DNA from: Hirudinaria manillensis
Taxonomy: Eukaryota; Annelida; Clitellata; Hirudinida; Hirudinidae
DNA length: 64,000 bases
Direction: 5' to 3'
Assembly (NCBI GenBank): GCA_034509925.1
Contig: CM067535.1
Span: 1,742,501-1,806,500 of the forward strand
Within the stretch, counting starts at the first letter, position 1; each line of letters opens with the position of its first letter. The translations under genes and the position numbers were made by a program. Positions 14,707-45,700 of this stretch are shown one piece after another. The notes under the pieces are model-generated. The model did no database searches, was not told where the DNA came from, and was given only the letters and a program-made list of their open reading frames with translations.

Positions 14707-15723
14707 CCTGGCATGGAAATGAATGACTTTATCTTAACATCAGCACAATAATTATGTAAATGCAAGGCAAATGTCAAACTTTTAACTTGTAAAACACTGT
14801 AAAAAAAACTCCACTTTTGGAGCCTTTATGCATGAATAAGGTTTATGCTCTAATTGCAAAATAAACTTACTGAGCCCTATACAACATGTAAACAGAAACA
14901 CATGTAATTGCTATCAAACTGTCCCAAATAATGAAGCAGAACAAGTTTTACAAAGTAGTGGTGTTTTAAGAGATGCCTATAAGTACCTTGGCAGCATTAT
15001 GTAACTTTTTACCGGTTACCAAAATGCAAGTGAGAGCAGAACAAATGTGGAGGATAAATAGGCAAAAATGGTCTGAACCTAACTGGGCTTAGTTTGTTGA
15101 CCACAAATTTAATAAAGCCAACTCCTTTCTAAAAGCATTAACGTGATGTGGTAAATTGCCACAATTGAACACTTGAGATAGTAAGAGTCGTGAAAATAAA
15201 TTCGACATTAAGTTTCAGTTAAGGTACAAATATTTTGAGGAAAATTATCCTTAAAAGCACCTCGCTCTAACATGCTCATAAATACAAATTCCGAGCCGGC
15301 AGCAATGGACCTAAAATGCGCTGAACAATTCCATGGAGTTATCAATCCACAATTTAACAATGTGAATACATTATTTTAATGATGACTTACGTTGCAATAT
15401 TTTCGTTAAAAGTACGTTATTAAGAGCCACCATCCAAAACACGAATGCAACGTTATAATAAAACTTCCGGTAATACAACATAGATAGAAAATTTGCATAG
15501 CAGTCCTTAATTTTAAACTTTATACAAATAAAATTTTATTTTTAATAGTTAAATGTGTTTCTTATTTAAAATAAGATAATTGGTTCACGGGTCCGAATGC
15601 AATAAAATGCCGTGCTACATTATTCAAGAACTAAACTTTGGATTGGGCGCGAGACCGATAAACACATACACACGGACATATATGAGGTTTCTGTAGAGCT
15701 CACTTAATATCTTGATGATAAAT
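14707..15723. other. PABPN1 upstream region, no gene seen
   Basis: AT-rich sequence between the PABPN1 start and the HECT-associated rearranged block. It presumably contains the PABPN1 promoter and 5' UTR. No open frame of interest. Confidence 0.45.
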
Positions 15724-16234
15724 TCCGATATGGTTTGCGAATCCCATAAATTAACACGTCGCCGCTGAGAACTTGCAACCACAAGGGATCGTTTCTGTCA
15801 GATGTCAGCTGCTTAAACCGTTCCATAAATACTCTGGCACAGTCCCAGTCTGACCATCTGATCTTCAGAGCTCTTTTGCTGCCTCTTCCTTCATTCAATA
15901 GATGTAAGCCTTCGTTTTCTATCTGTCTGTAATCAGTCGAATATGTGACAGGTTCTGCCCAGAGAGTCAGCCCAGTGTCTCGTTGGGCTATGACAATCGT
16001 TAGTTTCCTTGGCTTTCTTTTATCATTTCCCACGTTGAAAACAAGAACAGGCACTCCGACCCAAACCTGCACCCAACGGCACCCACTTTCGTAATACAAG
16101 CAGTCACCACCTCTCATGCTGGCCAATACGTCCACCACGCAACCTGCAGCGTAAGTCTGGCAGCCCAAACTGGAGTAGAAGAAGTCAATCCTCTCTGTTT
16201 CGTCTTGAGAAAGAATGAGCGATTGTGGTTGATC
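15724..16234 (-). pseudogene. third, internally deleted copy of the 493-aa gene and HECT flank
   Basis: On the minus strand, 16234-15773 is nearly identical to the middle of the 493-residue gene (30530-30070), from about QPQSLILSQ to NDPLWLQ, with a few replacements (for example YAAGC for YVAGC, YYESG for YSETG). It is then joined directly to 15777-15724, which matches sequence upstream of the HECT genes (22869-22923 and 29145-29199). Everything between these two pieces in the complete locus is missing. The junction shares the 5 bases CTTGC with both parents. The frame continues across the joint for 22 foreign residues to a stop near 15704. A possible acceptor (TTGTTCAG) precedes the piece at 16234, so it could be spliced as an exon, but no upstream partner is evident. 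I call it a pseudogene fragment. Confidence 0.75.
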
Positions 16235-16460
16235 TGAACAATGAAAACAAACACAAAAAAACATGGAATGATAGATTTATTTATATAAATGAACACTAAA
16301 TAACTGAATGAACACTTAACTAAGGTGAAAAAAAAATAATAATAATAAAAATTATGATAATAAGATTCAAACACAAACCAGAAATTGAACAAGTGCATTC
16401 TATTCCAATGTTGTATAGTAACAGAGTTTAGGACAATCCATCGCAAACACAATCCAGCAA

Positions 16461-17924: not shown

Positions 17925-18505
17925 TTTTGAGCGAAAATAAGGGGTGCGTATCGATCGGGTTGCAGTATTCTTCATCAAAATCCCTTAAATTCTATGTTCG
18001 ATTACGAGAGTTTTTTTTGAGCAACTTGGTTACATAACCGCATATTTGCATAAAAATACTTTGATGAATGTTTTTATTTAAAAATGAACTTGTTAATTTG
18101 TCATTCTTATTTTGTATTGTCAATCGTTCTATAAATTACTGAAGTGTCACTGAAAGAGGCCTAGTCATCCAAGCTGTAATGCAGCTACATGAGGAATTTC
18201 AAAAACAGATAAAATTGAAGAGCAAAAGATACAAAAGCAAAAACATATTAGTTCCACTCAAACGGCTGTTAAAAGAATTTATTGCTATAAACATATTCAT
18301 AGTAGACGTAGGTATTTATTTACCTTGACGGAAGTCCACCCAAAATTTACTGGCGCTTTCCTCACGTACGCACCTTTTACTCTCAAAGCGAAACAAACAA
18401 GTAGAAGATTAGGTGTACAATTTTCAAATCAAATTTTTAACGTAATTTTGATATAATGAGGTCAAACAGCTAATTTTTTGTACATATTGGAGCGGTGCAC
18501 AGAGA

Positions 18506-18733
18506 TCATCTCAATAGCTGATCCATTTGTTTGTCACGAATAATTTCTGCATTAACCATATGCAACCAAAAATCCTCCCGCTTTCGTCCAACAGGCATGG
18601 TCTGTTCCTGATTTCTATCCACGTCATCGATTTGAAATATCCATGACATCATTTTGTCGATTTTGACCAGCTGGCATGATCCTCCTCTTGGTCTCAACTC
18701 CCATTTTTTACATATTCCTATAAAGGTAGCCAA
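18506..18733 (-). CDS. 75-codon ORF downstream of HECT copy A, unknown
   Basis: An open minus-strand frame without a good initiator at its start (it would begin with TTG). It may be a terminal exon, with a possible TTTATAG acceptor just inside its left end. The peptide is Lys/Trp/Asp-rich (KKWELRPRGGSCQLVKIDKM, ending DKQMDQLLR). It is identical in amino acids to the copy B frame, and the two nucleotide differences within it are both silent, which hints at, but does not prove, constraint. No family recognised. Confidence 0.35.
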   Translation of the reverse strand: MATFIGICKKWELRPRGGSCQLVKIDKMMSWIFQIDDVDRNQEQTMPVGRKREDFWLHMVNAEIIRDKQMDQLLR

Positions 18734-19559
18734 GGCCCAAGTTGGCTGTCACATTTGTTTAATGAATATTGAATTTAATTACGCTATTTAAACTAAATTT
18801 ATGTTTACCATTTAAATAACTAAATTGTTTATTTAAGAGTAATTCTTTAATGAATTCCGGTCCAGATGTTATTGATATCTGGGTTACGATTCAAATTAAG
18901 TCAATGGACATAAAGAGCATCTCGAACGACGAATTAACTAGATTTCGAATTTCTATAGCATGCCATAGTGGATCAGTCAATTGCTCCAATTAATATCGAT
19001 TGATCGTAGATTGATATCCACCTCAATTTGGAAAAAAGGAACAGACCTCAGCATCGAAAAAGTTTGAAATACCAATGTCTTCAACCACTTTTGTATAAAC
19101 ATATATTTCAACACTTATCCAAGGGTTAACCTCTTGGTCAATCAAGCCCGTCAGTTCAGACGCGCGCAGGAATTATGTTAGGCTTGGCTAGCCATCTAAC
19201 GAGTAAAAAAAACATTATAAACAAAATGTAACTTTGGTGAGCCTAAAATTTTTGCAAAGGCGTGGCATTCGCTGGAATTTTAGTTTTTACACAGTTACCA
19301 CCCCAAGACATGAAATGAAATTAAACTCATATTGATCATAGATTTAGTATTGTTTGGCTGGTGATTGGACCCATCCTAATATACAGTGAACAATATCTTA
19401 TTAGCTATTTATTGCTATAAACGTTCATGTGTCAGACACTACTATTTATTCGAAACTAATAATTGTTTGGAAAATGTAATTTATAATGCCGTTAATATCG
19501 CACAAAATTAATGGACGCATTCATAACGATTTACTTTAGCTGTCAGTAGCAATCACTTG
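18734..19559. other. spacer downstream of HECT copy A
   Basis: AT-rich DNA, nearly identical to 25010-25835. No exon, RNA or array recognised; probably HECT 3' UTR plus spacer. Confidence 0.5.
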
Positions 19560-22433
19560 TTAGTAAAAGTTAAACTCTTTTCTTCCCTCTCTAATGGCCA
19601 GAAGAAGTTTAACTTCTAGAGCCTTTTTACAGCTGTAATTTGTAATGAATAACGTATTATGGCAGGTGAGCGATGTAGGTAAGTTATCGTCAGGATTTCC
19701 GTTAGATAATTTGCGTACGATTTTCAGCTTTGGAAAAAGGTTAGCCCAACCTCCAAGGGGCAATCTTGGACTGCCGGTAACGAATTCCAAGAAATGCCTC
19801 TGGTCGAGGGCTGATAACTGCGAAAGTACTTCAAACAAATGAATAATCACAGGCGATGTTCTGCCAAAACCTTCGAGGACACAATTACATTTCAGAATGT
19901 GAACTGTCCAGTCACATTTGGTCGGACCACAGAATATTTCACTGTATTCGTGTTGAAAGAAGTATCGCATATGTATTGGATCTAGAACTTTCGCGAATCC
20001 CTTTCTTACTTCCTTCATACTCTTCTGTGGATTATTATACAGCAACCACCAAACTAACAACTTCAGGTAATATTCGACATTATCGATGCTCAAAAATGTT
20101 TCCCTTCCTTTCTCCATCATCTCGATATCTGGTGACCCCGGAAGGGTAAAGTTCACGCAAAGGTCTTCGAAGGAACATCCATCACAATTGATTTTTGATA
20201 TGGCTTCATTCATTTTTTTTAAAGATGATGATTTATCATTCATTACGCACCATTTTTCTCTTAGGGCATCCACAAGACTTTGAACAAATTTGAATATTGA
20301 TGGATTTACATCTTTTATGTCTATGAGTGAGAGTTGCTGGGCATCAAGGTCGCCCCTGAACAAACATTTGTAGAAGGCGCACGAGAAGTTTATGTCTAAC
20401 CTGTACCGTTCTATGAGAGCTTTCGCCATTACCACGCCTATAGCATTTAGGTACGACTTTCCAACTGGATTGCGAGACAATTTTGGGGTCGGAAACAATC
20501 CAGACTGAGATGTTACATATGAAATTCCATCGATAACCTCTCCAGTCTCCCCTGACCACAATTCATGCTTAAATGCCTGGCAATCTCTAGAAAATTCCGA
20601 ATAAAACTCTTTAATTGATCCCATGGGCGCACCGAGTTCTCCAGCAAATTGAAATTGCCACGATCGATGAGACATTTCGACTTCCGAGTTCAACTTTTTT
20701 GTGAAATCATGGAGTATATTATTTCTAGGAATGACAATTTCTATGTCTGAACGGTTATAGGTACTTCGATATTCAAAGTCTATGTCTGATATTAACAGAT
20801 CACGACGGTGTTCCATCGTCAACAGAAAAGGATAACTTCGGGATAGTTCGAACACGAAATTTGGGGTCATTCCATAATGATTTATAAATCTGTTTGTTCT
20901 ACTAATTCCAAAAACTACCCTTAATACTTCACTGACGAAGCAGTCCCTATTAATTATCATCTCTGTTGATAGACTGCCGAATAATATTCCCCAGTTTTCA
21001 TTCACTTCGTAAAGGATTGACAGCAGCCTCAAAACTCTTGCCATCGGGTTTTCTCTCGTTTTATCGGATTTTGAAGGTCCAAGTACTCTGTCGAAGGAAA
21101 CCGAATTGCATAACTCCAACGTGACCTCCATTGGACTTTTTGGAGCCGGTAGATCTTCGATTTCGTAAAGGTCAAGTGGAACGTTAACGAAACCGTTTCG
21201 AATTAATAAGACGTCAAGGGTTCTGACAATCGATGTAACTAAATCTTGAAACTCTTTGGTTCCGGTTGCACTTGCATTCAGCTTTCCCTTAAAATCCGAT
21301 GTTTGTGGCAGATCAAGAATGTTTGCTACCAACTCTCTGAGATTACTGTAGTTAATTTGCATTGTCATTTGAGAAGGCCTCCAGGTGCTTATGTCTGGCA
21401 TGATAGTATTTAAAGTGGAATTAACTTTTTCAATCCTATCGTTAAATTTGCGATCGTTAATTTGATACTTATATACACTATGTTCATTCATCCAATACGT
21501 TGTCACTTCAAGATACACGTAGTGAATAACTTCAAAGCGTCCCTTTAGATGGAAATAATTCGAAATAATAGGCTTTTTATCAATCAAAAATTCACCTATC
21601 CTTTCATTTATTAAATGCTCCTTGTGGAAAACAATCAGTAATTCGAAAAATGCAAAACCCACGAAGAAATCGTCGTCTTGAAGTGTATTGGTGTCTATGA
21701 GATTCTTCGCATATTTGATAAGTTCCTCTATATTCAGTAAATTTTCTATATACTCAGCCTCACAGCGAAACCATTTTAATAGAAGGACTTTGTAAGAGGT
21801 CGGACATGGTTTCTGACAGACTCTGAAGAAATTGTACAGAGAACGCCCGATTTGATCTCTGGTTATTAATGATGATTCGGGTCCCGTGCTTAAAATTTTA
21901 TTTGAATTTTTTGTCAAATCAGGAAAATCCGAGGTCTTTGGTAATAATACGGAAAAAAGTTCAACGAGAGTTAGAGATTTATCGGTTTTGTTGGAGGAAC
22001 GATAGCTTGCCTGCTTTTCAGATTCCCTCGCCAAAATGTCAGTAAGGACATCCAAAATCCCCATTTCGACAAGTATGCCCACTTCCTGACTATAATTCTG
22101 AGTTTCAAGCATGAGTTTCAAATTCTTAGATGATTCATATATGAGCTCAGCTTCACCAGTTTTACTGTATCTTTTCAATATGTACACAATTGCGAAGAGA
22201 ATGCCACGATGCAATGGTTCGGAATTTCGAATCAACTTATTTCTTAAGTCTTGGAGGATTGCCGTCAATAAACAAACGGATGCATTGTCGATCATCACTT
22301 TTACATCAGACTCGGAACCACGAAGCTTCAATAATAAATTTTCACTAAATAATTTTGAGCTCCGGATCCAGTCTAAAAGTGCCGCCGTATAAACCAAAGC
22401 GAATCCTGCAATCCAATATTTTAATTCGGGCAT
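19560..22433 (-). CDS. HECT-domain E3 ubiquitin ligase, TRIP12/UFD4-like, intronless, copy A
   Basis: A single uninterrupted frame of 957 residues from ATG 22433 (MPELKYWIAG) to the stop at 19560. HECT ligases take ubiquitin onto a catalytic cysteine and pass it to lysines of substrates. The C-terminal third (about residues 590-957) is a HECT domain: WQFQFAGELGAPMGSIKEFY, then FVTGSPRLPLGG, then DDNLPTSLTCHNTL, with the catalytic Cys at residue 924 (codon 19662-19664), then a LLLAIREGRKEFNFY tail. The closing motifs most resemble TRIP12/UFD4. The N-terminal half is helical and Leu-rich, possibly armadillo-like, and the first 25 residues are hydrophobic, so a membrane anchor is possible. TRIP12-type genes normally have many introns; this one has none, suggesting a retrocopy origin. 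The gene is duplicated at 25836-28709. Confidence 0.9.
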   Translation of the reverse strand: MPELKYWIAGFALVYTAALLDWIRSSKLFSENLLLKLRGSESDVKVMIDNASVCLLTAILQDLRNKLIRNSEPLHRGILFAIVYILKRYSKTGEAELIYESSKNLKLMLETQNYSQEVGILVEMGILDVLTDILARESEKQASYRSSNKTDKSLTLVELFSVLLPKTSDFPDLTKNSNKILSTGPESSLITRDQIGRSLYNFFRVCQKPCPTSYKVLLLKWFRCEAEYIENLLNIEELIKYAKNLIDTNTLQDDDFFVGFAFFELLIVFHKEHLINERIGEFLIDKKPIISNYFHLKGRFEVIHYVYLEVTTYWMNEHSVYKYQINDRKFNDRIEKVNSTLNTIMPDISTWRPSQMTMQINYSNLRELVANILDLPQTSDFKGKLNASATGTKEFQDLVTSIVRTLDVLLIRNGFVNVPLDLYEIEDLPAPKSPMEVTLELCNSVSFDRVLGPSKSDKTRENPMARVLRLLSILYEVNENWGILFGSLSTEMIINRDCFVSEVLRVVFGISRTNRFINHYGMTPNFVFELSRSYPFLLTMEHRRDLLISDIDFEYRSTYNRSDIEIVIPRNNILHDFTKKLNSEVEMSHRSWQFQFAGELGAPMGSIKEFYSEFSRDCQAFKHELWSGETGEVIDGISYVTSQSGLFPTPKLSRNPVGKSYLNAIGVVMAKALIERYRLDINFSCAFYKCLFRGDLDAQQLSLIDIKDVNPSIFKFVQSLVDALREKWCVMNDKSSSLKKMNEAISKINCDGCSFEDLCVNFTLPGSPDIEMMEKGRETFLSIDNVEYYLKLLVWWLLYNNPQKSMKEVRKGFAKVLDPIHMRYFFQHEYSEIFCGPTKCDWTVHILKCNCVLEGFGRTSPVIIHLFEVLSQLSALDQRHFLEFVTGSPRLPLGGWANLFPKLKIVRKLSNGNPDDNLPTSLTCHNTLFITNYSCKKALEVKLLLAIREGRKEFNFY

Positions 22434-23446
22434 TATACGTTCACGGATTTGTACTTTGCTGTGCTTCGATGAAAGTGCAATCTCTATATTTTGTTTCGTT
22501 CGAATTCGATCAATGAATACAATTCTTGCCGAAATAAAAGATTAATTTTCAATTTATTACAATTTAACAATTTTAACAATATTGTTTTAAAAGTTTATTA
22601 TTTCCCCTGTTTATTATAAAAGTTTATTATTATTACCTTTGCCTTTATCACTCCATATTGTCCAAAACTTGGTTAAATATCATCGAGAGCCCATCCGACG
22701 TCGTTTCGTAATCACTGTCGAAAGTTAACTCGGTGCGTCGGGTTCAAACGCCCCTACTTAACCTGTCATTATCATCACGTGGATGTTTAACTCGACTCGT
22801 TGCCTTTGTCGCTCCAATCACAGACAACTACAAGCGTCGTCCAATGGCTTCGAAGATGAACAACTTTGATTCCGATATGGTTTGCGAATCCCATAAATTA
22901 ACACGTCGCCGCTGAGAACTTGCGATTTCTGTAAACAGTTTGATAATCAAAAATTGTAAAAAGCTTTGGTTGATTCGTATCCCGCCACTTAGAAGCTTCT
23001 TTGTTTCACTTCTTTTCTAATAATCAGAGGGCGGGTAACCAAAGTGTTGTTCCGTAGTTATTTGCTTATTCTTTTCCCTATCATCACAATCAAGCAAATG
23101 AAAAGGAAAGTTTAACAACTTTTCTTGGTCATTTATGCTTACATAAATGGAATTAGTGATTTCGGTTTGACAAAAAAGTTAAACATGCTTTTCGCATTCG
23201 TCGTGAAATTATGACGTGTTATCAAAATCAAACACTTTGTTCACCATATTTCACCTAACAACTATTACAAAGACCACATATTTAAATACATATAAACACA
23301 TATCTGTCAAAAAAAAAAAAAACAGAAGCCTTTTAGGAAAATTTAAATCTCAACAATTTCACCAAGCTTTAAGATGCCATGATCTATGTCGAAAATCTCA
23401 TATTGCTAGAATAATTAAAAAAAAAATTAAGCGGCAAAGTTTAGGT
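22434..23446. other. spacer upstream of HECT copy A
   Basis: Probably the HECT promoter and 5' UTR and the end of the neighbouring gene copy. It carries a 60-codon plus-strand frame (22733-22915) preserved in copy B but lacking an ATG start. The piece 22869-22923 is also found fused to a gene fragment at 15724-15777. No confident gene. Confidence 0.5.
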
Positions 23447-23932
23447 TTAATTGGTTGGGAGTCTGGGTCGAAATTCTTCATCTTGAAGAGAAGCAAACCA
23501 ACTTTTTGCCCTTAGTGGCACGGGCAGTAGACCGGCGAAAGTAGTCCTGAAGTTGACGTCCCTTGAGTCTACCCTCGTCATAACCCTGACATTGATAGGA
23601 AGGGAGATGTCTTTCTTCTCTATGTATTCTGACGGACTGAATTTATCTGATGAACTAGCTTCCAAGGGCGATAATTTTTGGCACTCTAAATTTCTGCTGA
23701 GAGATTCTCTCGTGTGTTTTTTAACGTCACGCTTTTTAAAAATTGCTCTAGATTTTTTCCTAACTATTTTTGGGCTTGAAATTCCTGATTCAGGGTGATA
23801 TTTCTTATCAATGGTGCTAGTGATGATGGTATTACCAGGGAAATTATAAACGTCAAAGTTTTGAAGCAGAACAATCGAATAAATACATAACGAAAAAGGA
23901 TTGAACATCGTGACTATCTCGCACCAAAACAT
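23447..23932 (-). pseudogene. C-terminal fragment of the 493-aa gene, copy A
   Basis: The minus frame from about 23774 to 23447 matches the last third of the 493-residue gene (PKIVRKKSRAIFKK to FRPRLPTN), with one extra Ser and few replacements. Upstream of 23774 homology stops abruptly and the frame continues into unrelated sequence with an ATG at 23932, so a chimeric 161-residue product is conceivable. The N-terminal two thirds of the gene are absent. It was most simply created when the duplication endpoint fell inside the gene. Confidence 0.75.
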
Positions 23933-24571
23933 TTCCGAAATGCTGGGCTAACTCAGAAACGCTGCCATTGTTTGTATTGTGACAGTCTTTGAGCTTATGA
24001 GTGTGTTCTCTTTCAACTTTTTAGACCTTTAACCTGACCACCCGTTTATTCCCATGATTAATCGGAAACGTCATTTAAGCAGAAATTGGTTAACAGGAAC
24101 TCCTGACAAAACACGAAGTATTTTTTACTCTTGGTTTCAATTTCTTCAAGTTAATCCGACCACAAATTACCAAACTAATCAATTATTCGGTGAATAATAC
24201 CAGCAAGTTGGTTTTTCAAAAGAATTATTTCCAACAGCTAGACGTAAGAGAAGGGAATAGCTTGGGCAAAGAGCAAGATCGAGCCATTCCACAGGCATAG
24301 CAGGATAAGTGGATATTCTTGGGATGCAGCGATATCTTTCAATATTGAAATTTCACTAATGTTATTAGATGCATTAGAAACTCAAAGATTCACATGTGAA
24401 TCAATGACCTGAAATCACAATTAGGTTCGCATTCTTAGGTGGAATGCTTTGAGCAACTAAAATTCTTGTAAAAGCGGGGCATACGCATATGCTTCATTCT
24501 AGCCGTCAGGTTGCTCTGCTTCATTCTGGTCGTCAGGCTGCTGCACATCTACTCTACTCCCTTCCGCCACC
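23933..24571. other. unique DNA between the two duplication copies
   Basis: About 800 bp (from 23775) not shared between copies. It contains a 27-bp imperfect tandem repeat pair at about 24490-24543 (TGCTTCATTCTAGCCGTCAG and TGCTTCATTCTGGTCGTCAG), close to the right copy's left boundary. No gene seen. Confidence 0.5.
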
Positions 24572-24781
24572 TTCATAGTAGACGTAGGTATTTATTTACC
24601 TTGACGGAAGTCCACCCAAAATTTACTGGCGCTTTCCTCACGTACGCACCTTTTACTCTCAAAGCGAAACAAACAAGTAGAAGATTAGGTGTACAATTTT
24701 CAAATCAAATTTTTAACGTAATTTTGATATAATGAGGTCAAACAGCTAATTGTTTGTACATATTGGAGCGGTGCACAGAGA

Positions 24782-25009
24782 TCATCTCAATAGCTGGTCC
24801 ATTTGTTTGTCACGAATAATTTCTGCATTAACCATATGCAACCAAAAATCCTCCCGCTTTCGTCCAACAGGCATGGTCTGTTCCTGATTTCTATCCACGT
24901 CATCGATTTGAAATATCCATGACATCATTTTGTCGATTTTGACCAGCTGGCATGACCCTCCTCTTGGTCTCAACTCCCATTTTTTACATATTCCTATAAA
25001 GGTAGCCAA
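24782..25009 (-). CDS. 75-codon ORF downstream of HECT copy B, unknown
   Basis: Same predicted peptide as the frame at 18506-18733; the two copies differ only at two silent positions. There is no ATG at the 5' end, so it is either a terminal exon or a fragment. Function unknown. Confidence 0.35.
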   Translation of the reverse strand: MATFIGICKKWELRPRGGSCQLVKIDKMMSWIFQIDDVDRNQEQTMPVGRKREDFWLHMVNAEIIRDKQMDQLLR

Positions 25010-25835
25010 GGCCCAAGTTGGCTGTCACATTTGTTTAATGAATATTGAATTTAATTACGCTATTTAAACTAAATTTATGTTTACTATTTAAATAACTAAA
25101 TTGTTTATTTAAGAGTAATTCTTTAATGAATTCCGGTCCAGATGTTATTGATATCTGGGTTACGATTCAAATTAAGTCAATGGACATAAAGAGCATCTCG
25201 AACGACGAATTAACTAGATTTCGAATTTCTATAGCATGCCATAGTGGATCAGTCAATTGCTCCAATTAATATCGATTGATCGTAGATTGATATCCACCTC
25301 AATTTGGAAAAAAGGAACAGACCTCAGCATCGAAAAAGTTTGAAATACCAATGTCTTCAAACACTTTTGTATAAACATATATTTCAACACTTATCCAAGG
25401 GTTAACCTCTTGGTCAATCAAGCCCGTCAGTTCAGACGCGCGCAGGAATTATGTTAGGCTTGGCTAGCCATCTAACGAGTAAAAAAAACATTATAAACAA
25501 AATGTAACTTTGGTGAGCCTAAAATTTTTGCAAAGGCGTGGCATTCGCTGGAATTTTAGTTTTTACACAGTTACCACCCCAAGACATGAAATGAAATTAA
25601 ACTCATATTGATCATAGATTTAGTATTGTTTGGCTGGTGATTGGACCCATCCTAATATACAGTGAACAATATCTTATTAGCTATTTATTGCTATAAACGT
25701 TCATGTGTCAGACACTACTATTTATTCGAAACAAATAATTGTTTGGAAAATGTAATTTATAATGCCGTTAATATCGCACAAAATTAATGGACGTATTCAT
25801 AACGATTTACTTTAGCTGTCAGTAGCAATCACTTG
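25010..25835. other. spacer downstream of HECT copy B
   Basis: Near-identical to 18734-19559. I see only a handful of substitutions and no feature of its own. Confidence 0.5.
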
Positions 25836-28709
25836 TTAGTAAAAGTTAAACTCTTTTCTTCCCTCTCTAATGGCCAGAAGAAGTTTAACTTCTAGAGCCT
25901 TTTTACAGCTGTAATTTGTAATGAATAACGTATTATGGCAGGTGAGCGATGTAGGTAAGTTATCGTCAGGATTTCCGTTAGATAATATGCGTACGATTTT
26001 CAGCTTTGGAAAAAGGTTAGCCCAACCTCCAAGGGGCAATCTTGGACTGCCAGTAACGAATTCCAAGAAATGCCTCTGGTCGAGGGCTGATAACTGCGAA
26101 AGTACTTCAAACAAATGAATAATCACAGGCGATGTTCTGCCAAAACCTTCGAGGACATAATTACATTTCAGAATGTGAACTGTCCAGTCACATTTGGTCG
26201 GACCACAGAATAGTTCACTGTATTCGTGTTGAAAGAGGTATCGCATATGTATTGGATCTAGAATTTTCGCGAATCCCTTTCTTACTTCTTTCATACTCTT
26301 CTGTGGATTATTATACAACAACCACCAAACTAACAACTTCAGGTAATATTCGACATTATCGATGCTCAAAAATGTTTCCCTTCCTCCCTCCATCATCTCG
26401 ATATCTGGTGACCCCGGAAGGGTAAAGTTCACGCAAAGGTCTTCGAAGGAACATCCATCACAATTGATTTTTGATATGGCTTCATTCATTTTTTTTAAAG
26501 ATAATGATTTATCATTCATTACGCACCATTTTTCTCTTAGGGCATCCACAAGACTTTGAACAAATTTGAATATTGATGGATTTACATCTTTTATGTCTAT
26601 GAGTGAGAGTTGCTGGGCATCAAGGTCGCCCCTGAACAAACATTTGTAGAAGGCGCACGAGAAGTTGATGTCTAACTCGTACATTTCTATGAGAGCTTTC
26701 GCCATTACCACGCCTATAGCATTTAGGTACGACTTTTCGAATGGATTGCGAGACAATTTTGGGGTCGGAAACAATCCAGACTGAGATGTTACATATGAAA
26801 TTCCATCGATAACCTCTCCAGTCTCCCCTGACCACAATTCATGCTTAAATGCCTGGCAATCTCTAGAAAATTCCGAATAAAACTCTTTAATTGATCCCAT
26901 GGGCGCACCGAGTTCTCCAGCAAATTGAAATTGCCACGTTCGATGAGACATTTCGACTTCCGAGTTCAACTTTTTTGTGAAATCATGGAGTATATTATTT
27001 CTAGGAATGATAATTTCTATGTCTGAACGGTTATAGGTACTTCCATATTTCAAGTATATGTCTGACATTAACAGATGACGACGGTGTTTCATCGTCAACA
27101 GAAAAGGATAACTTCGGGATAGTTCGAACACGAAATTTGGGATCATTTCATAATGATTTCGAAATCTGTCTGTTCTTCTAATTCCAAAAACTACCCTTAA
27201 TACTTCACTTACGAAGCAGTCCCTATTAATTATCATCTCTGTTGATAGACTGCCGAATAATATTCCCCAGTTTTCATTCACTTCGTAAAGGATTGACAGC
27301 AGCCTCAAAACTCTTGCCATCGGGTTTTCTCTCGTTTTCTCGGATTTTGAAGGTCCAAGTACTCTGTCGAAGGAAGCCGAATTGTATAACTCCAACGTGA
27401 CCTCCATTGGACTTTTTGGAGCCGGTAGATCTTCGATTTCGTAAAGGTCAAGTGGAACGTTAACGAAACCGTTTCGAATTAATAAGACGTCAAGGGTTCT
27501 GACAATCGATGTAACTAAATCTTGAAACTCTTTGGTTCCGGTTGCACTTGCATTCAGCTTTCCCTTAAAATCCGATGTTTCTGGCAGATCAAGAATGTTT
27601 GCTACCAACTCTCTGAGATTACTGTAGTTAATTTGCATTGTCATTTGAGAAGGCCTCCAGGTGCTTATGTCTGGCATGATAGTATTTAAAGTGGAATTAA
27701 CTTTTTCAATCCTATCGTTAAATTTGCGATCGTTAATTTGATACTTATATACACTATGTTCATTCATCCAATACGTTGTCACTTCAAGATACACCCAGTG
27801 AATAACTTCAAAGCGTCCATTTAGATGGAAATAATTCGAAATAATAGGCTTTTTATCAATCAAAAATTCACCTATCCTTTCATTTATTAAATGCTCCTTG
27901 TGGTAAACAATCAGTAAATCGAAAAATGCAAAACCCACGAAGAAATCGTCGTCTTGAAGTGTATTGGTGTCTATGAGATTCTTCGCATATTTGATAAGTT
28001 CCTCTATATTCAGTAAATTTTCTATATACTCAGCCTCACAGCGAAACCATTTTAATAGTAGAACTTTGTAAGAGGTCGGACATGGTTTCTGACAGACTCT
28101 GAAGAAATTGTACAGAGAACGCCCGATTTTATCTCTGGTTATTAATGATGATTCGGGTCCCGTCCTTAAAATTTTATTTGAATTTTTTGTCAAATCAGGA
28201 AAATCCGAGGTCTTTGGTAATAATACGGAAAAAAGTTCAACGAGAGTTAGAGATTTATCGGTTTTGTTGGAGGAACGATAGCTTGCCTGCTTTTCAGATT
28301 CCCTCGCCAAAATGTCAGTAAGGACATCCAAAATCCCCATTTCGACAAGTATGCCCACTTCCTGACTATAATTCTGAGTTTCAAGCATGAGTTTCAAATT
28401 CTTAGATGATTCATATATGAGCTCAGCTTCACCAGTTTTACTGTATCTTTTCAATATGTACACAATTGCGAAGAGAATGCCACGATGCAATGGTTCGGAA
28501 TTTCGAATCAACTTATTTCTTAAGTCTTGGAGGATTGCCGTCAATAAACAAACGGATGCATTGTCGATCATCACTTTTACATCAGACTCGGAACCACGAA
28601 GCTTCAATAATAAATTTTCACTAAATAATTTTGAGCTCCGGATCCAGTCTAAAAGTGCCGCCGTATAAACCAAAGCGAATCCTGCAATCCAATATTTTAA
28701 TTCGGGCAT
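25836..28709 (-). CDS. HECT-domain E3 ubiquitin ligase, TRIP12/UFD4-like, intronless, copy B
   Basis: Paralogue of the ligase at 19560-22433: also 957 residues, intronless, with the same start (ATG 28709) and an intact catalytic Cys at residue 924. By hand alignment about 35 residues differ (around 96% identity), from about 41 replacement nucleotide changes against about 7 silent ones. Thirteen of the replaced residues fall between about residues 500 and 560, just ahead of the HECT domain, for example ISRTNRFINHYGMTP in A against IRRTDRFRNHYEMIP in B. HECT core motifs (FVTGSPRLPLGG, LPTSLTC) are unchanged, so both are probably active enzymes with diverging substrate or partner surfaces. Confidence 0.9.
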   Translation of the reverse strand: MPELKYWIAGFALVYTAALLDWIRSSKLFSENLLLKLRGSESDVKVMIDNASVCLLTAILQDLRNKLIRNSEPLHRGILFAIVYILKRYSKTGEAELIYESSKNLKLMLETQNYSQEVGILVEMGILDVLTDILARESEKQASYRSSNKTDKSLTLVELFSVLLPKTSDFPDLTKNSNKILRTGPESSLITRDKIGRSLYNFFRVCQKPCPTSYKVLLLKWFRCEAEYIENLLNIEELIKYAKNLIDTNTLQDDDFFVGFAFFDLLIVYHKEHLINERIGEFLIDKKPIISNYFHLNGRFEVIHWVYLEVTTYWMNEHSVYKYQINDRKFNDRIEKVNSTLNTIMPDISTWRPSQMTMQINYSNLRELVANILDLPETSDFKGKLNASATGTKEFQDLVTSIVRTLDVLLIRNGFVNVPLDLYEIEDLPAPKSPMEVTLELYNSASFDRVLGPSKSEKTRENPMARVLRLLSILYEVNENWGILFGSLSTEMIINRDCFVSEVLRVVFGIRRTDRFRNHYEMIPNFVFELSRSYPFLLTMKHRRHLLMSDIYLKYGSTYNRSDIEIIIPRNNILHDFTKKLNSEVEMSHRTWQFQFAGELGAPMGSIKEFYSEFSRDCQAFKHELWSGETGEVIDGISYVTSQSGLFPTPKLSRNPFEKSYLNAIGVVMAKALIEMYELDINFSCAFYKCLFRGDLDAQQLSLIDIKDVNPSIFKFVQSLVDALREKWCVMNDKSLSLKKMNEAISKINCDGCSFEDLCVNFTLPGSPDIEMMEGGRETFLSIDNVEYYLKLLVWWLLYNNPQKSMKEVRKGFAKILDPIHMRYLFQHEYSELFCGPTKCDWTVHILKCNYVLEGFGRTSPVIIHLFEVLSQLSALDQRHFLEFVTGSPRLPLGGWANLFPKLKIVRILSNGNPDDNLPTSLTCHNTLFITNYSCKKALEVKLLLAIREGRKEFNFY

Positions 28710-29721
28710 TATACGTTCACGGATTTGTACTTTGCTGTGCTTCGATGAAAGTGCAACCTCTATATTTTGTTTCGTTCGAATTCGATCAATGAATACAATT
28801 CTTGCCGAAATAAAAGATTAATTTTCAATTTATTACAATTTAACAATTTTAACAATATTGTTTTAAAAGTTTATTATTTCCCCTGTTTATTATAAAAGTT
28901 TCTTATTATTACCTTTGCCTTTATCACTCCATATTGTCCAAAACTTGGTTAAATATCATCGAGAGCCCATCCGACGTCGTTTCGTAATCACTGTCGAAAG
29001 TTAACTCGGTGCGTCGGGTTCAAACGCCCCTACTTAACCTGTCATTATCATCACGTGGATGTTTAACTCGACTCGTTGCCTTTGTCGCTCCAATCACAGA
29101 CAACTACAAGCGTCGTCCAATGGCTTCGAAGATGAACAACTTTGATTCCGATATGGTTTGCGAATCCCATAAATTAACACGTCGCCGCTGAGAACTTGCG
29201 ATTTCTGTAAACAGTTTGATAATCAAAAATTGTAAAAAGCTTTGGTTGATTCGTATCCCGCCACTTAGAAGCTTCTTTGTTTCACTTCTTTTCTAATAAT
29301 CAGAGGGCGGGTAACCAAAGTGTTGTTCCGTAGTTATTTGCTTATTCTTTTCCCTATCATCACAATCAAGCAAATGAAAAGGAAAGTTTAACAACTTTTC
29401 TTGGTCATTTATGCTTACATAAATGGAATTAGTGATTTCGGTTTGACAAAAAAGTTAAACATGCTTTTCGCATTCGTCGTGAAATTATGACGTGTTATCA
29501 AAATCAAACACTTTGTTCACCATATTTCACCTAACAACCATTACAAAGACCACATATTTAAATACATATAAACATATATCTGTCAAAAAAAAAATAACAA
29601 AAGCCTTTTAGAAAAATTTAAATCTCAACAACTTCACCAAGCTTTAAGATGTCATGATCTATGTCGAAAATCTCATATTGCTAGAATAATTTAAAAAAAA
29701 ATTAAGCGGAAAAGTTTAGGT
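28710..29721. other. spacer between HECT copy B and the 493-aa gene
   Basis: Nearly identical to 22434-23446. Probably HECT-B promoter plus the 3' UTR of the 493-residue gene. A 60-codon plus frame (29009-29191) without ATG is conserved with copy A but is not convincing as a gene. Confidence 0.5.
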
Positions 29722-31203
29722 TTAATTGGTTGGGAGTCTGGGCCGAAATTCTTCATCTTGAAGAGAAGCAAACCAACTTTTTGCCCTTAGTGGCACGGGC
29801 AGTAGACCGGCGAAAGTAGTCCTGAAGTTGACGTCCCTTGAGTCTACCCTCGTCATAACCCTGACATTGATAGGAAGGGAGATGTCTTTCTTCTCTATGT
29901 ATTCTGACGGACTGAATTTATCTGATGAAGCTTCCAAGGGTGATAATTTTTGGCACTCTAAATTTTTGCTGAGAGATTCTCTCGTGTGTTTTTTAACGTC
30001 ACGCTTTTTAAAAATTGCTCTAGATTTTTTCCTAACTATTTTTGGGTCTACCGATTGCTGCGAATTACCTTGCAACCACAAAGGATCGTTTCTGTCAGAT
30101 GTCAGCTGCTTAAACCGTTCCATAAATACTCTGGCACAGTCCCAGTCTGACCATCTGATCTTCAGAGCTCGTTTGCTGCCTCTTCCTTCATTCAATAGAT
30201 GTAAGCCTTCGTTTTCTATCTGTCTGTAATCAGTCGAATATGTGACAGGTTCTGCCCAGAGAGTCAGCCCAGTGTCTCGTTGGGCTATGACAATCGTTAG
30301 TTTCCTTGGCTTTCTTTTATCATTTCCCACGTTGAAAACAAGAACAGGCACTCCGACCCAAACCTGCACCCAACGACACCCAGTTTCGGAATACAAGCAG
30401 TCACCACCTCTCATGCTGGCCAATACGTCCACCACGCAACCTGCAACGTAAGTCTGGCAGCCCAAACTGGAGTAGAAGAAGTCAATCCTCTCTGCTTCTT
30501 CTTGAGAAAGAATGAGCGATTGTGGTTGAACGTCTGGAGAATGCGCTTTTCCATCAGATGCTATTTTCTTTCTAAGATGTATTTCATGAATTGCTGAGAG
30601 ATTTTTATTGGCTTCCTGACTCTTCATATCGTGATCGACTTTTTCAGGCTTCTTATCTTCAGTTTTTACTTCGGCATCAATACCAGCGTTGAAGCATTTC
30701 GCTCTCAGTTGACGCATTCTAAAAGAATCGAATCTTTTAGTCACACTGTTGAGAGCTTTCAGCGTGTCGGCGTCGTACTCCCAAGTGTACTTCGGTTCAT
30801 GTCGTTTAACCTCCATGTTGTTGCGTGGGCTCTCGTCGCCAACTCCGAAAAAGTTCTTGTAGTCGTTGACGTCTAAGTAGATGTTGTTTGCAATCTGAGC
30901 AGACTCGTCTGACGAGCCATCGACTTTGTAGCGTTGTTTCAGGTTCTCGGCCGATCGACTGTGATGTGTTTTCGGAGGGATCAGGAAGTCGTTTGAAGTC
31001 GTTCTTTTCCCGAATGTTGAAAACATTTCGTTTGTATGAATTCTCTCGATGGTTTGAAGTTTGTCAAGCGGAGGAGGAATGGAAACAAGAGTAACTTCAT
31101 CGTGGTTGACGGCTTTTCCACTTTCATCACTCGACTCAACTCCATCAAGCTGAAGTCTCAGGATAGCACCGACAACCTCTGTATCATTCAAGTTTGACGT
31201 CAT
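29722..31203 (-). CDS. intronless 493-residue protein of unknown function, intact copy
   Basis: The frame runs from ATG 31203 (MTSNLNDTEVVGAILRLQLD) to the stop at 29722. The N-terminal 200 residues are polar and low in order. The middle (about residues 230-365) is compact, beta-rich and Trp-containing (RWVQVWVGVPVLVFNVGNDK, LTIVIAQRDTGLTLWAEPVT, IRWSDWDCARVFMERFKQLT), ending in what looks like a C-terminal amphipathic helix. This pattern suggests a PH- or PTB-like fold, which is my inference. The tail is basic and Ser-rich. I do not recognise the family. It lies about 1 kb upstream of HECT-B in the same direction, and parts of it are duplicated at 23447-23774 and 15773-16234. Codon 1 is chosen as the first ATG in frame. 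Confidence 0.75.
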   Translation of the reverse strand: MTSNLNDTEVVGAILRLQLDGVESSDESGKAVNHDEVTLVSIPPPLDKLQTIERIHTNEMFSTFGKRTTSNDFLIPPKTHHSRSAENLKQRYKVDGSSDESAQIANNIYLDVNDYKNFFGVGDESPRNNMEVKRHEPKYTWEYDADTLKALNSVTKRFDSFRMRQLRAKCFNAGIDAEVKTEDKKPEKVDHDMKSQEANKNLSAIHEIHLRKKIASDGKAHSPDVQPQSLILSQEEAERIDFFYSSLGCQTYVAGCVVDVLASMRGGDCLYSETGCRWVQVWVGVPVLVFNVGNDKRKPRKLTIVIAQRDTGLTLWAEPVTYSTDYRQIENEGLHLLNEGRGSKRALKIRWSDWDCARVFMERFKQLTSDRNDPLWLQGNSQQSVDPKIVRKKSRAIFKKRDVKKHTRESLSKNLECQKLSPLEASSDKFSPSEYIEKKDISLPINVRVMTRVDSRDVNFRTTFAGLLPVPLRAKSWFASLQDEEFRPRLPTN

Positions 31204-32112
31204 GAACTTTCGAATTTTTTTTTTATTAAACTGCAAACTAAATTAATACTCTAGAGTCACAAACCAAATTCAAATTCGTGGAAGTTGCTGTTAAAACATC
31301 TTCGACGTACGAACATAACCCTGGTTTAAACATCCTGTTTAATAATACTGTCAGAAATATGGCAGTAATTAGTATGCGAGTTGAGGCATCTTCTCCCGAC
31401 TCCAATTAAGCTATTAAATAACCTGCAGTCTCGTGCACCTCTCTACAGCTAAAATCTAAGCTGAGTTCTCATTAATTAGGCCAGTTCTTATTTTGATTCA
31501 CATTTTTATGATAAAAGTCTCATATATCGGCTAACCGACATTGTTTCAGTCATTACCATATATTTATACCAACGTTTTTGATTCCGAAACATTTTTTGAC
31601 TAAATCGTTTCAAAAATAAGATAAATTTTGAGAACCTTAAAAGTGGGAAAACCATCCTTTGCGTATCCAACATCTTGGACGCATTTCGTGCGCATGAGGA
31701 AAATGCCAGAAATGAGTTTTTGAAATAAAAAACTTTCACACCAAACTATTAATATTAATTAAATGTATTTTTCTTACAATTCAAATGTCAAATAGGTTTG
31801 TGAAAATATTTAATCAGAGTTATCCCACCTGGAGATTAATCCGATATCTGGACAATTGCAAATAACAGCAAAAAATAAATAAAACTGATTTATACTTATT
31901 TAACAAATTTTTAAATCAAACAAAATATTTAAATCAAAATATAATCGTAAGAAATTATCTTTACTAAAATAACATTTAAGCATCAAAAATAAATTAGCTC
32001 AACCCTACATTTTATAAATATTGTCCCGTCTGTGTTGTTTCTAACGCGCTTAAGTTCTCTCCTTGGATTTAACATCACCTCAGAAAAAAGGCTTTACAAA
32101 GATTTAATAATC
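31204..32112. other. divergent promoter interval
   Basis: AT-rich DNA between the start of the minus-strand 493-residue gene and the plus-strand CP2 gene start at 32113. It should contain both promoters. No motif is strong enough to name. Confidence 0.4.
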
Positions 32113-33999: not shown

Positions 34000-34069
<70 letters not shown>

Positions 34070-42700: not shown

Positions 42701-45700
42701 AGAAAACAATTGTTCTTTGTACCTGGAATATCGAAGAATATTTAACATTTAAATATTAAAAACATTTAATGCTCGTACCTAATTAAGTAATCAATCAGTC
42801 AGCTTTAAAAAGATGACAAACCAACCTAAGATGAGTGTTCTCATAGAAGGGTCTCGTGAGATGATCTTAAAATAGCCTGGAATTTTTTATTTCTTTCTCT
42901 CACTCCATCTCTCACACTCTTTTCAGGAACAAAGATTCCTACAATTTGAATAACGATAACCACAAGCGCGACTGCAATAACAACAACAATAACAACAACA
43001 ATAACAGCAACAATAACAACAACAATAACAGCAACACCGGCATCAGTTGATGTGGATTAACTTCCTTTTAGTCTACAAAAGCTTGAAGAGTCTTGTTTTA
43101 AATTTCACTCTTCGAGCACTTCCAAAGTCTTGAGTCTTGAGTCTTGAGTCATACCTTCGGAACAGCCCTTGGCAGAATAACTTGTGCCTAATAATAGTAG
43201 AATAACTCGTAAATTATGAACAATTTAGCATTTTATTCATGGGCCATTTGAGCATAGATTCTAAGGCTTAAAGTGTATCGTTGCATTAAATTAGTATTAA
43301 ATTGTATTATTGTATTAAATTAGTATTAAATTGTATTATTGTATTAAATTAGTATTAAATTGTATTATTGTATTAAATTAGTATTAAATTGTATTATTGT
43401 ATTAAATTAGTATTAAATTGTATTATTGTATTAAATTGTATTATTGTATTAAATTGTATTATTATTTCGTATTACTGCCTATCCGTACAAAGAGTACTTC
43501 CTATTGGAAGAAATAGGTAAACAGATGATTGTACTGCAGACGATAAACAATACCGTTCCCTTCCTTTTAGATTATCCGATACCTCAAGTTGATGACAACG
43601 AGAATCTGATACCGCCGAGACCCAGGTGAACCCTAGCTTCTGATTGGCTGTCATTTTTTATGGATCAAGTTGCTGCTAATTTCGGAAACTGTGCCCTTTT
43701 TAAAACTCGGCGCTTTGTTGTTAAGCTGTTGCTTAATTATTTTTCTTTGAATAATAATTAATGATGATAATAATAATAATAGTAATAATATTAATAATAA
43801 TGATAATAATAATAACACCTATTTAGGGTGAGGAAGGACCTCCGAAGCAACAGTCCCAGTACTGTTCTTGCATCTGGCGGGTCCAGCAAAGGTATGTCAA
43901 GAATGTAGTAAACTTAAGCTCTTGAAATTGTCTTCTTCATTTCTCCTTGTTGTTTTTATTTTTATTTTTATTCTCAGTGAATTGAATTGATCGTAGTAAA
44001 GAAATAGGGAGCGGTATAAACACCCGAGCCTTTTGAATTTGTTCTTTTTGTAAATCATTGTTTATTAAATATTATTTAAGATCATCTCCTGGTTCCTGTT
44101 AACAAATGCATCTGACCCTAGTCATATTATAGTCATATTTTAGTCATATTATAGTCACATTATAGTTATATTTTAGTCATATTTTAGTCATATTATAGTC
44201 ATATTATAGTCAGCTTAAGCATTCCAGAGAAACAAATTCGAAGGAAAGGAGATCCTGTGAAATGGCCATGCACTCCAACTATTAAATAATTTTTTGGCTC
44301 TTCATCTTCGACATTAATATTAAGACTTGCTTGTTTGGATCGATGGACATGATTAGTGGACTATTGGACTGGAGACTGGCAATGATTTGACACCCTGATT
44401 GGTCAAACAGACGTCCTTTTCGTAGGCACAAGGTCGAACTCACTGCCCTCTACCGGTGGAACCGAGTACCAACCCATACGTACGAGTTTCAAGAATTCCA
44501 AGAGGCTTGTACTGGTTAGGTCGATAAGAAGTATAATTAGTATTATTATTTCGTATAATTATAATATTGTTATTAATAACTTATTATCATTGTTATTATT
44601 ATTATTATTTATTTATTCATTTATTTATTTATTTATTCATTTATTTACTAATACCTTATTTACCAGTTTATAGTTTCATTCTTATTTATGTTCCTGGTTG
44701 ATATAATATTATTATAATATAATATAATATTATTAGATGTTTTATGTGTCGATTATTATGGGCTGTGTCGAAACTATATTTTATTGGCTGGAATTTAGGT
44801 CATGTTAAATGCACAAAGAACTATGAACCTTGTTGAGAGCTGCTGATGTGGAGTTGTGTTTTTCTTTTCTATTTTTAGACCGGTGATGGCTCTCAAACAA
44901 GGAGGGTAGAAGCAGACGCCAAGGATAGGTTAGGGAGTTGTGGAGGTTGAAATAAAGTACCTATGAAATCGGTGATCCGTGAAGGAAGAATGGATGGATG
45001 GATGGATGGATGGATGGATGGATGGATGGATGGATGGATGGATGGATGGATGGATGGATGGATGGATGGATGGATGGATGGATGGATGGATGGATGGATG
45101 GATGGATGGATGGATGGATGGATGGATGGATGGATGGATGGATGGATGGATGGATGGATGGATGGATGGATGGATGGATGGATGGATGGATGGATTGTCT
45201 GATGTTTGTTGTGGTGATGAAGGTGCCGATGGAAATAATCATTTCGTTCATAGGTTGGTTTTAAAGAAGAACCAAAATCAAGGAGCAGACGAGAAACCAC
45301 TCAGTGAAGACGACTGGCGGCAGTTTCTGAGACCAACAAAATCCAGCATAAAGTATGTTTGTGATTGGTTAGATTATGCAATTATACAAGTCGTGACCTA
45401 CTTTTTCAGCCAATCTCTGTGAGAGAATGTAACTAATGTCAATGTCTGCGTTTGTTTGTATCCCGAAAACAAAAAACAACAATGTTTCGCATCTATGTTA
45501 ACCTTTATGTAACCTTTATCTCTTGGCTGATTTCTCTGTTATCTTGTGATTTATATTCGGATGATTTTAAGAGTTTTTTTGTGTAATTAAAATATATCCT
45601 TTGATGAAAATCTTGGATTAAATTAACTTTAAATACTTAAAAGATTGTTCGAGGAGAAGAATGTAGTGAAACAGGCCACTGCACTCTTCGATTTCTACGC

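Follow-up and report, generated by a model that had tools for sequence, protein, structure and literature searches.

Probable exchange of tracts with diverged paralogues in a tandem pair of TRIP12-like HECT ligase genes from the leech Hirudinaria manillensis

Two genes for HECT ubiquitin ligases, here called copies A and B, lie in tandem in a 64,000-nucleotide stretch of the genome of the leech Hirudinaria manillensis (assembly GCA_034509925.1; C10:1742501-1806500). We refer to this whole stretch as the window and give positions within it unless a contig is named. Our findings indicate that the pair is probably a recent tandem duplicate in a large family of single-frame, TRIP12-like HECT ligases, and that it probably exchanged tracts with diverged relatives. 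The pair lies in duplicated DNA, has paralogues elsewhere in the genome with which it shares nucleotide states, carries signals of recombination and retains the conserved residues of the family. An excess of replacement changes between young duplicates is easily misread as positive selection. Here, half of the differences pre-exist in other copies, and neutral variation in rate reproduces the signal of a naive site model.

Results

Divergence within the tandem pair

Copies A (19560-22433) and B (25836-28709) are both encoded on the minus strand, each as a single open reading frame (ORF) of 957 codons, and they align without gaps. They are carried by two units of a tandem repeat, at 18296-23774 and 24572-30046, which are 98.67% identical with a spacing of 6276 bp. 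On the codon alignment, A and B differ at 48 nucleotides in 42 codons, 35 with replacement changes (41 nucleotides) and 7 with silent ones (7 nucleotides), in exact agreement with the approximate counts of 41 and 7 in an earlier note on this DNA. The several codons that the note described as changed at two bases number 6, compared with 0.8 expected at random (P=5e-5). Transitions and transversions are equally frequent, with 24 of each.

The earlier note had gone on to place dN/dS well above 1, and had offered strong positive selection or conversion from a diverged paralogue as the cause. Codon analysis bore out neither the ratio nor, as stated, the selection on the pair. With averaging over mutational pathways (Nei-Gojobori) we counted 39 replacement and 9 silent changes, giving a dN of 0.0177, a dS of 0.0143 and a dN/dS of 1.24 (one-sided p=0.35). 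Transition weighting raised the ratio to 1.46 (p=0.20), and maximum likelihood gave an omega of 1.44 (kappa 2.1; likelihood ratio test (LRT) statistic 0.89, p=0.35). None of these values, which range from 1.24 to 1.46, differs significantly from 1, and a Fisher test of replacement against silent changes agrees (p=0.40). Silent divergence from site counting is 1.3-1.4% (9 of 712 or of 638 sites), higher than the 0.5-1% first estimated.

The ORF, at 1.67% (48/2874), is more diverged than the flanks of the HECT unit, at 0.53% (9/1699; p=0.0005), and than all of the noncoding duplicated DNA, at 0.81% (21/2601; p=0.005). Thus the claim that coding DNA has diverged more than its spacers holds for the unit flanks. 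It does not extend evenly to the spacers as a whole: the duplicated stretch outside the unit (22869-23774) reaches 1.33% (12/902), above the unit flanks (p=0.04). Silent sites in the ORF (9/712) also appear raised: they exceed the unit flanks by a non-significant margin (p=0.07) and are about as diverged as the outer stretch. Part of the contrast between coding and flanking DNA therefore reflects low divergence in the flanks, which fits either homogenisation of the flanks or the import of divergence into the ORF. When replacement sites were compared with silent sites and all noncoding DNA together, divergence was 1.99-fold higher (p=0.004). Within the ORF the differences fall in clusters (variance/mean 2.5, with 0/5000 random draws as high). 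The first 545 coding bases are identical, and 15 of the 48 changes fall in codons 505-600, directly N-terminal of the HECT domain (20634-20921 in A and 26910-27197 in B, minus strand).

Sequencing error is an unlikely source of these differences, as both ORFs are free of frameshifts and stops, the differences cluster within the ORF, and half of them are states present in other copies.

Close copies elsewhere in the genome

We searched the whole assembly (148 Mb in 23 contigs) for further HECT paralogues and found seven more close copies of the HECT unit along with a wider family. Five are in an array at C10:2.07-2.11 Mb, some 0.3 Mb from A and B on the same contig, one is on contig C8 and one, 86% identical, is at C10:1.45 Mb. 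The stretch in common with the array and C8 spans 17958-22869 for copy A (minus strand; 96.8% identity to array copy 2 and 97.2% to C8) and, by sequence match, 24572-29145 for copy B (minus strand). The C8 copy duplicates the array unit in extended form. All seven other copies begin to match at one common edge, 22869, and a 55-bp piece there (22869-22923, minus strand), with exact copies at 29145-29199 and 15722-15776, delimits the HECT unit on its 5' side. Five of the seven have an intact ORF and two, array copies 3 and 4, each have their own single in-frame stop. Counting A and B, seven of the nine close copies are intact over ~957 codons, with indels that keep the frame. Array copy 4 differs from array copy 3 by 3 replacements, and it was dropped from the site models, the simulated nulls and the comparison of pairs with unit-flank and silent divergence.

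Upstream of the ATG (22434-22541 in A), the reading frame is uninterrupted for 36 codons in both A and B, in C8 and in the array copies. In the 86% copy it is open for only a few codons, so this upstream part is probably noncoding. The two tandem units are separated by 797 bp (23775-24571) that are matched elsewhere only piecewise: ~145 bp resemble the array unit in its downstream part, and ~654 bp match C10:5707436-5708084 at 95% identity. Judged by these matches, the junction is of composite history.

Exchange among the copies

At 24 of the 48 A/B differences (20 in replacement codons and 4 silent), both states are found among the seven other copies, while 13 are unique to A and 11 to B. Sites polymorphic among the six closest copies account for 21 of the differences, compared with ~3.6 of 48 expected from random mutation. 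At 18 of these 21 the change matches a state that already exists, against a generous expectation of 39% that allows for hot sites (p=1.2e-5). Shared states thus exceed what parallel mutation predicts. The best-matching copy switches along the gene, giving a mosaic, and neighbouring sites are more compatible among eight copies than after permutation (PHI-type test; 0/1000 as low), a strong signal of recombination. In a second test, the identical runs seen in 9 of 28 sequence pairs were matched in 0/2000 permutations. Non-sister copies therefore hold tracts in common beyond chance, as in a gene-converting family. Together, the shared states and recombination tests support the earlier proposal of conversion from diverged paralogues, and exchange of this kind would explain much of the A/B pattern.

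Particular donors were harder to assign. B has states that among the other copies only the 86% copy shows, at codon 548, at the first base of codon 676 and at the second bases of codons 678 and 775. They would explain codon 678, which is among the two-base codons given in the earlier note, codon 775 and half of 676. This pattern is suggestive only, because at codons 305 and 514 it is A that has states limited to the 86% copy.

Three further points weigh against exchange as a full account. The remaining 24 differences (21 replacement and 3 silent) are left unexplained by it, although their skew is not significant (p=0.12). No single clean donor tract was found, as matches alternate among the array copies, C8 and the 86% copy. 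Finally, the permutation test of identical runs takes sites as exchangeable, and relatedness or clustering of rates could inflate its result.

Selection and constraint

Diversifying selection on the pair and its family, with substrate-binding parts selected to change in a host-parasite or genomic conflict, may have contributed, and we regard this as a tentative reading. In addition to the 1.99-fold excess in the pair itself, replacement divergence exceeded combined unit-flank and silent divergence at p<0.05 in 18 of 21 close-copy pairs, although these pairs are not independent; the excess was absent from all seven pairs involving the 86% copy (ratio 0.74-1.03). Silent divergence was also above the unit flanks in several pairs, for example 2.5% versus 1.1% for A/C8. 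Nei-Gojobori ratios were calculated for 36 pairs, transition-weighted ratios for 11 chosen pairs and maximum-likelihood omega for ten chosen pairs. In two of these ten, omega was above 1 at uncorrected p<0.05 (B/C8, 1.91, p=0.019; C8/array copy 5, 1.67, p=0.043), whereas for array copy 2/C8 it was below 1 (0.36, p=0.045).

Along the gene, the ratio of replacement to silent changes (N:S) among eight close copies was 37:3 in codons 1-120 (22074-22433 in A, minus strand; A and B do not differ there) and reached 48:7 in codons 505-600, as against 16:12 in codons 351-504 and 59:24 in codons 601-957, with the boundaries of these regions set after inspection of the data. Heterogeneity along the gene was marginal by permutation (p=0.03 with 8 bins and 0.08 with 16; 0.06 and 0.13 with the distant copy included). 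For the gene as a whole, a tree-free test gave 214.5 replacement and 61.5 silent changes, a ratio of 1.15 (p=0.4).

Site models gave what appears to be a stronger signal. The comparison of M2a with M1a had an LRT statistic of 115, with a class at omega 5.2 in 17% of codons, while omega under M0 was 0.99; four segments each given their own tree were also significant, at 14 to 38. The value of 115 lies above all 120 recombining nulls simulated without rate variation. The maximum was 30.6 in 40 simulations with half of the sites conserved and trees switching every 60 codons, and 49 and 58.5 with all sites neutral and trees switching every 60 or 25 codons (40 simulations each). A neutral null with gamma-distributed rates (shape 0.5, assumed and not fitted) and 60-codon trees, however, had a mean of 106, and 16 of 40 simulations reached 114.9. 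Neutral rate variation thus reproduces the observed values, and we rejected the M2a/M1a comparison as proof of selection; by itself the site-model signal is not evidence for it. Positive selection on the family is possible, with the regional skew in N:S, the excess in pairs and the marginal heterogeneity as hints only.

Relaxed constraint, in which recent copies are largely redundant and drift at an omega of ~1 while some die, is likewise a possibility that we hold with reserve. It agrees with the omega of ~1 in most close pairs and with the stops in two of the five array copies. It fits less well with the seven intact copies and their frame-keeping indels, with an N:S below the neutral ratio in codons 351-504 (p=0.05) and lowish in codons 601-957 (0.79, p=0.37), and with the older members of the family, in which constraint is clear and the presumed catalytic residues are invariant. 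Across 14 ORFs of the family, 8 of them partial, omega was fitted for the 10 closest of the 91 pairs. The eight more diverged pairs gave 0.26-0.57, all significantly below 1 (LRT 18-157), and the two young ones gave 1.11 (L001/L002) and 0.53 (L004/L006; LRT 3.7). In three older pairs codons 601-840 were the most constrained (0.26-0.46, uncorrected for multiple hits), and codons 241-350 and 505-600 evolved faster (0.50-1.06); comparison of A with the 86% copy gave 0.43 and 0.74 for codons 601-840. Between recent copies, replacement changes accumulate about as fast as silent ones, perhaps faster in the first 120 codons and in codons 505-600.

A further reading, which we consider unlikely, takes A and B as diverged haplotypes of a single locus whose differences are allelic, and which either unequal crossing over or the assembler set in tandem: flank divergence of ~0.5% would fit ordinary allelic diversity and half of the differences are shared with other copies, but a simple haplotype split would not yield a head-to-tail tandem with a 797-bp unshared junction.

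The HECT family and its relation to TRIP12

The predicted protein of copy A has a HECT domain at residues 642-956 (Pfam, 2.3e-60; 19566-20510, minus strand), which scores 205 bits for PF00632 against a cut-off of 23.9, and within which the genome-wide profile match at C10:1762066-1763007 falls. Pfam recognised no domain besides HECT in this protein when the ARM domain with tandem ubiquitin-binding regions, a feature of the TRIP12 subfamily, was considered. Cys924 (19662-19664, minus strand), which we take to be catalytic by homology to the HECT C-lobe, is a cysteine in 23/23 aligned family members, as is a phenylalanine at position -4 from the C-terminus. Since the frame, the presumed catalytic cysteine and the C-terminal phenylalanine are kept, and older pairs are under purifying selection, A and B probably encode functional ligases, their activity and catalysis being predicted from sequence and homology. 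By eye, the translation of A begins with a hydrophobic N-terminus that might anchor the protein in a membrane, and the variable parts such as codons 505-600 may serve in substrate recognition.

A profile search of the genome returned 145 HECT matches, exon by exon. By hand count from the search table, 74 of these cover 206 or more of the 306 domain positions. Among the 74, the match is free of stops and sits in an open frame of at least 596 aa in 66 cases; array copy 4, with its stop further upstream, is among the 66. With the protein of copy A as query, 48 matches passed E<=1e-20. Nine of them were 78-100% identical (A and B included), five were at 42-44% and 34 at 30-43%, some of them to the C-terminal part only. 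The expansion is unusual, with ~66 long HECT frames compared with 9 HECT genes in C. elegans and 28 in human in the table of a 2010 survey (PMC2837046), which lists one TRIP12 gene for human and none for C. elegans.

Among solved structures, residues 456-955 of copy A align best with TRIP12 residues 1033-1563 (9gkm), at 229 bits, compared with 114 for yeast Ufd4 and 69 for E6AP. TRIP12 is also the best solved-structure match of three further members (44, 30 and 37% identical to A), and its lead over Ufd4 is at least 106 bits in 4/4 members tested. When the HEL-UBL region was sought, the TRIP12 alignment was seen to start from residue 456 in A and 313 in the L004 fragment, but only from 581 in L024 and 452 in the L008 fragment. 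As the comparison covers solved structures, with no tree and no HECTD1 chain among the rows shown, TRIP12/HECTD1 group is the safer name.

Other features of the window and genome

A 504-aa ORF without a Pfam match lies at 29722-31236 (minus strand), and a partial copy of it, 98% identical, at 15772-16232 within 15704-16264 (minus strand). Read by eye, the coding piece of the partial copy directly abuts a 55-bp piece. Near 30069, by contrast, ~870 bp with GCAAG at its flanks lies between the two and has the look of an intron, or of an insertion that duplicated 5 bp. The genome search placed this ORF at four sites including its own, the last one weak. Further along, a 1444-aa open frame (57787-62121) has an internal repeat (60932-61449 versus 61106-61624, 81%) and a sub-threshold match to intermediate filaments. 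Short-period tandem repeats are found at 2250-2363 and 34000-34069, at 44981-45195 and at 43268-43461, the first having an exact match in opposite orientation at 34 kb. Outside the window, a cox1 match at C9:3026446-3027786 equals the mitochondrial contig (C23) in score and in its nine in-frame TGA codons, and is either mitochondrial DNA that recently entered the nuclear genome or an error of assembly. The mitochondrial contig (15,581 bp) has a cox1 that is open with AGA/AGG translated as Ser and equally as Gly, Ser being preferred given the conservation of cox1. Its genes, as recognised by eye, follow the annelid order cox1, cox2, cox3, nad6 ... nad1, nad3 along one strand. Profile matches in the genome include 63 to the antistasin domain and a single partial one to hirudin, which is interrupted by a stop; a leech origin is almost certain from these features.

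Discussion

Our combined findings argue for tandem duplication followed or accompanied by exchange as the probable origin of the A/B pattern. Young members of the family would arise through segmental and tandem duplication. During or after formation of the pair, A and B may have exchanged short tracts with diverged relatives, the donors probably being mainly the array copies ~0.3 Mb away on the same contig. Such tracts would have imported differences that were already diverged and mostly replacement changes, pushing the divergence of the ORF above that of its flanks. In addition, young copies may lose constraint more in the non-catalytic than in the catalytic part of the protein. A bolder reading, which we consider somewhat unlikely, is that in leeches TRIP12, a housekeeping ligase that animals normally have in single copy, was made into an arsenal of dozens of single-frame ligases. 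Gene conversion would shuffle their recognition segments, and conflict with parasites, mobile DNA or rival alleles would maintain the diversity.

TRIP12 and Ufd4 are the best solved relatives of the leech proteins (9gkm, 9ken, 8j1p). TRIP12 residues F2037-S2040 are described in PMC12440805 as part of the active-site assembly, and the context of the cysteine and the phenylalanine at -4 in the leech members are as in TRIP12. In contrast to TRIP12, a single gene in the human column of the survey table (PMC2837046), the leech members are shorter (957 aa), occupy one open frame and occur in dozens of copies.

No HECT expansion in leeches or in any other animal was mentioned in the titles and abstract openings of the literature matches listed. 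A partial parallel exists in mammalian HERC5 and HERC6, which differ in having an RCC1-like plus HECT architecture and in being few genes. They too are HECT ligases reported, in titles and abstract openings, to be fast-evolving or positively selected (PMC4021598, PMC7775381). The data described in one of those abstract openings are a comparison of orthologues, whereas the leech case concerns paralogues.

The F-box and MATH families of nematodes are, in the literature at the level of abstract openings, likewise large families of the ubiquitin system with marked turnover in copy number. Variation in their substrate domains has been read as adaptive. Those proteins act as adapters of cullin ligases, while in the leech the whole catalytic E3 is amplified. 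If the family does diversify under conflict, it would be the catalytic E3 itself, and not an adapter, that has been multiplied.

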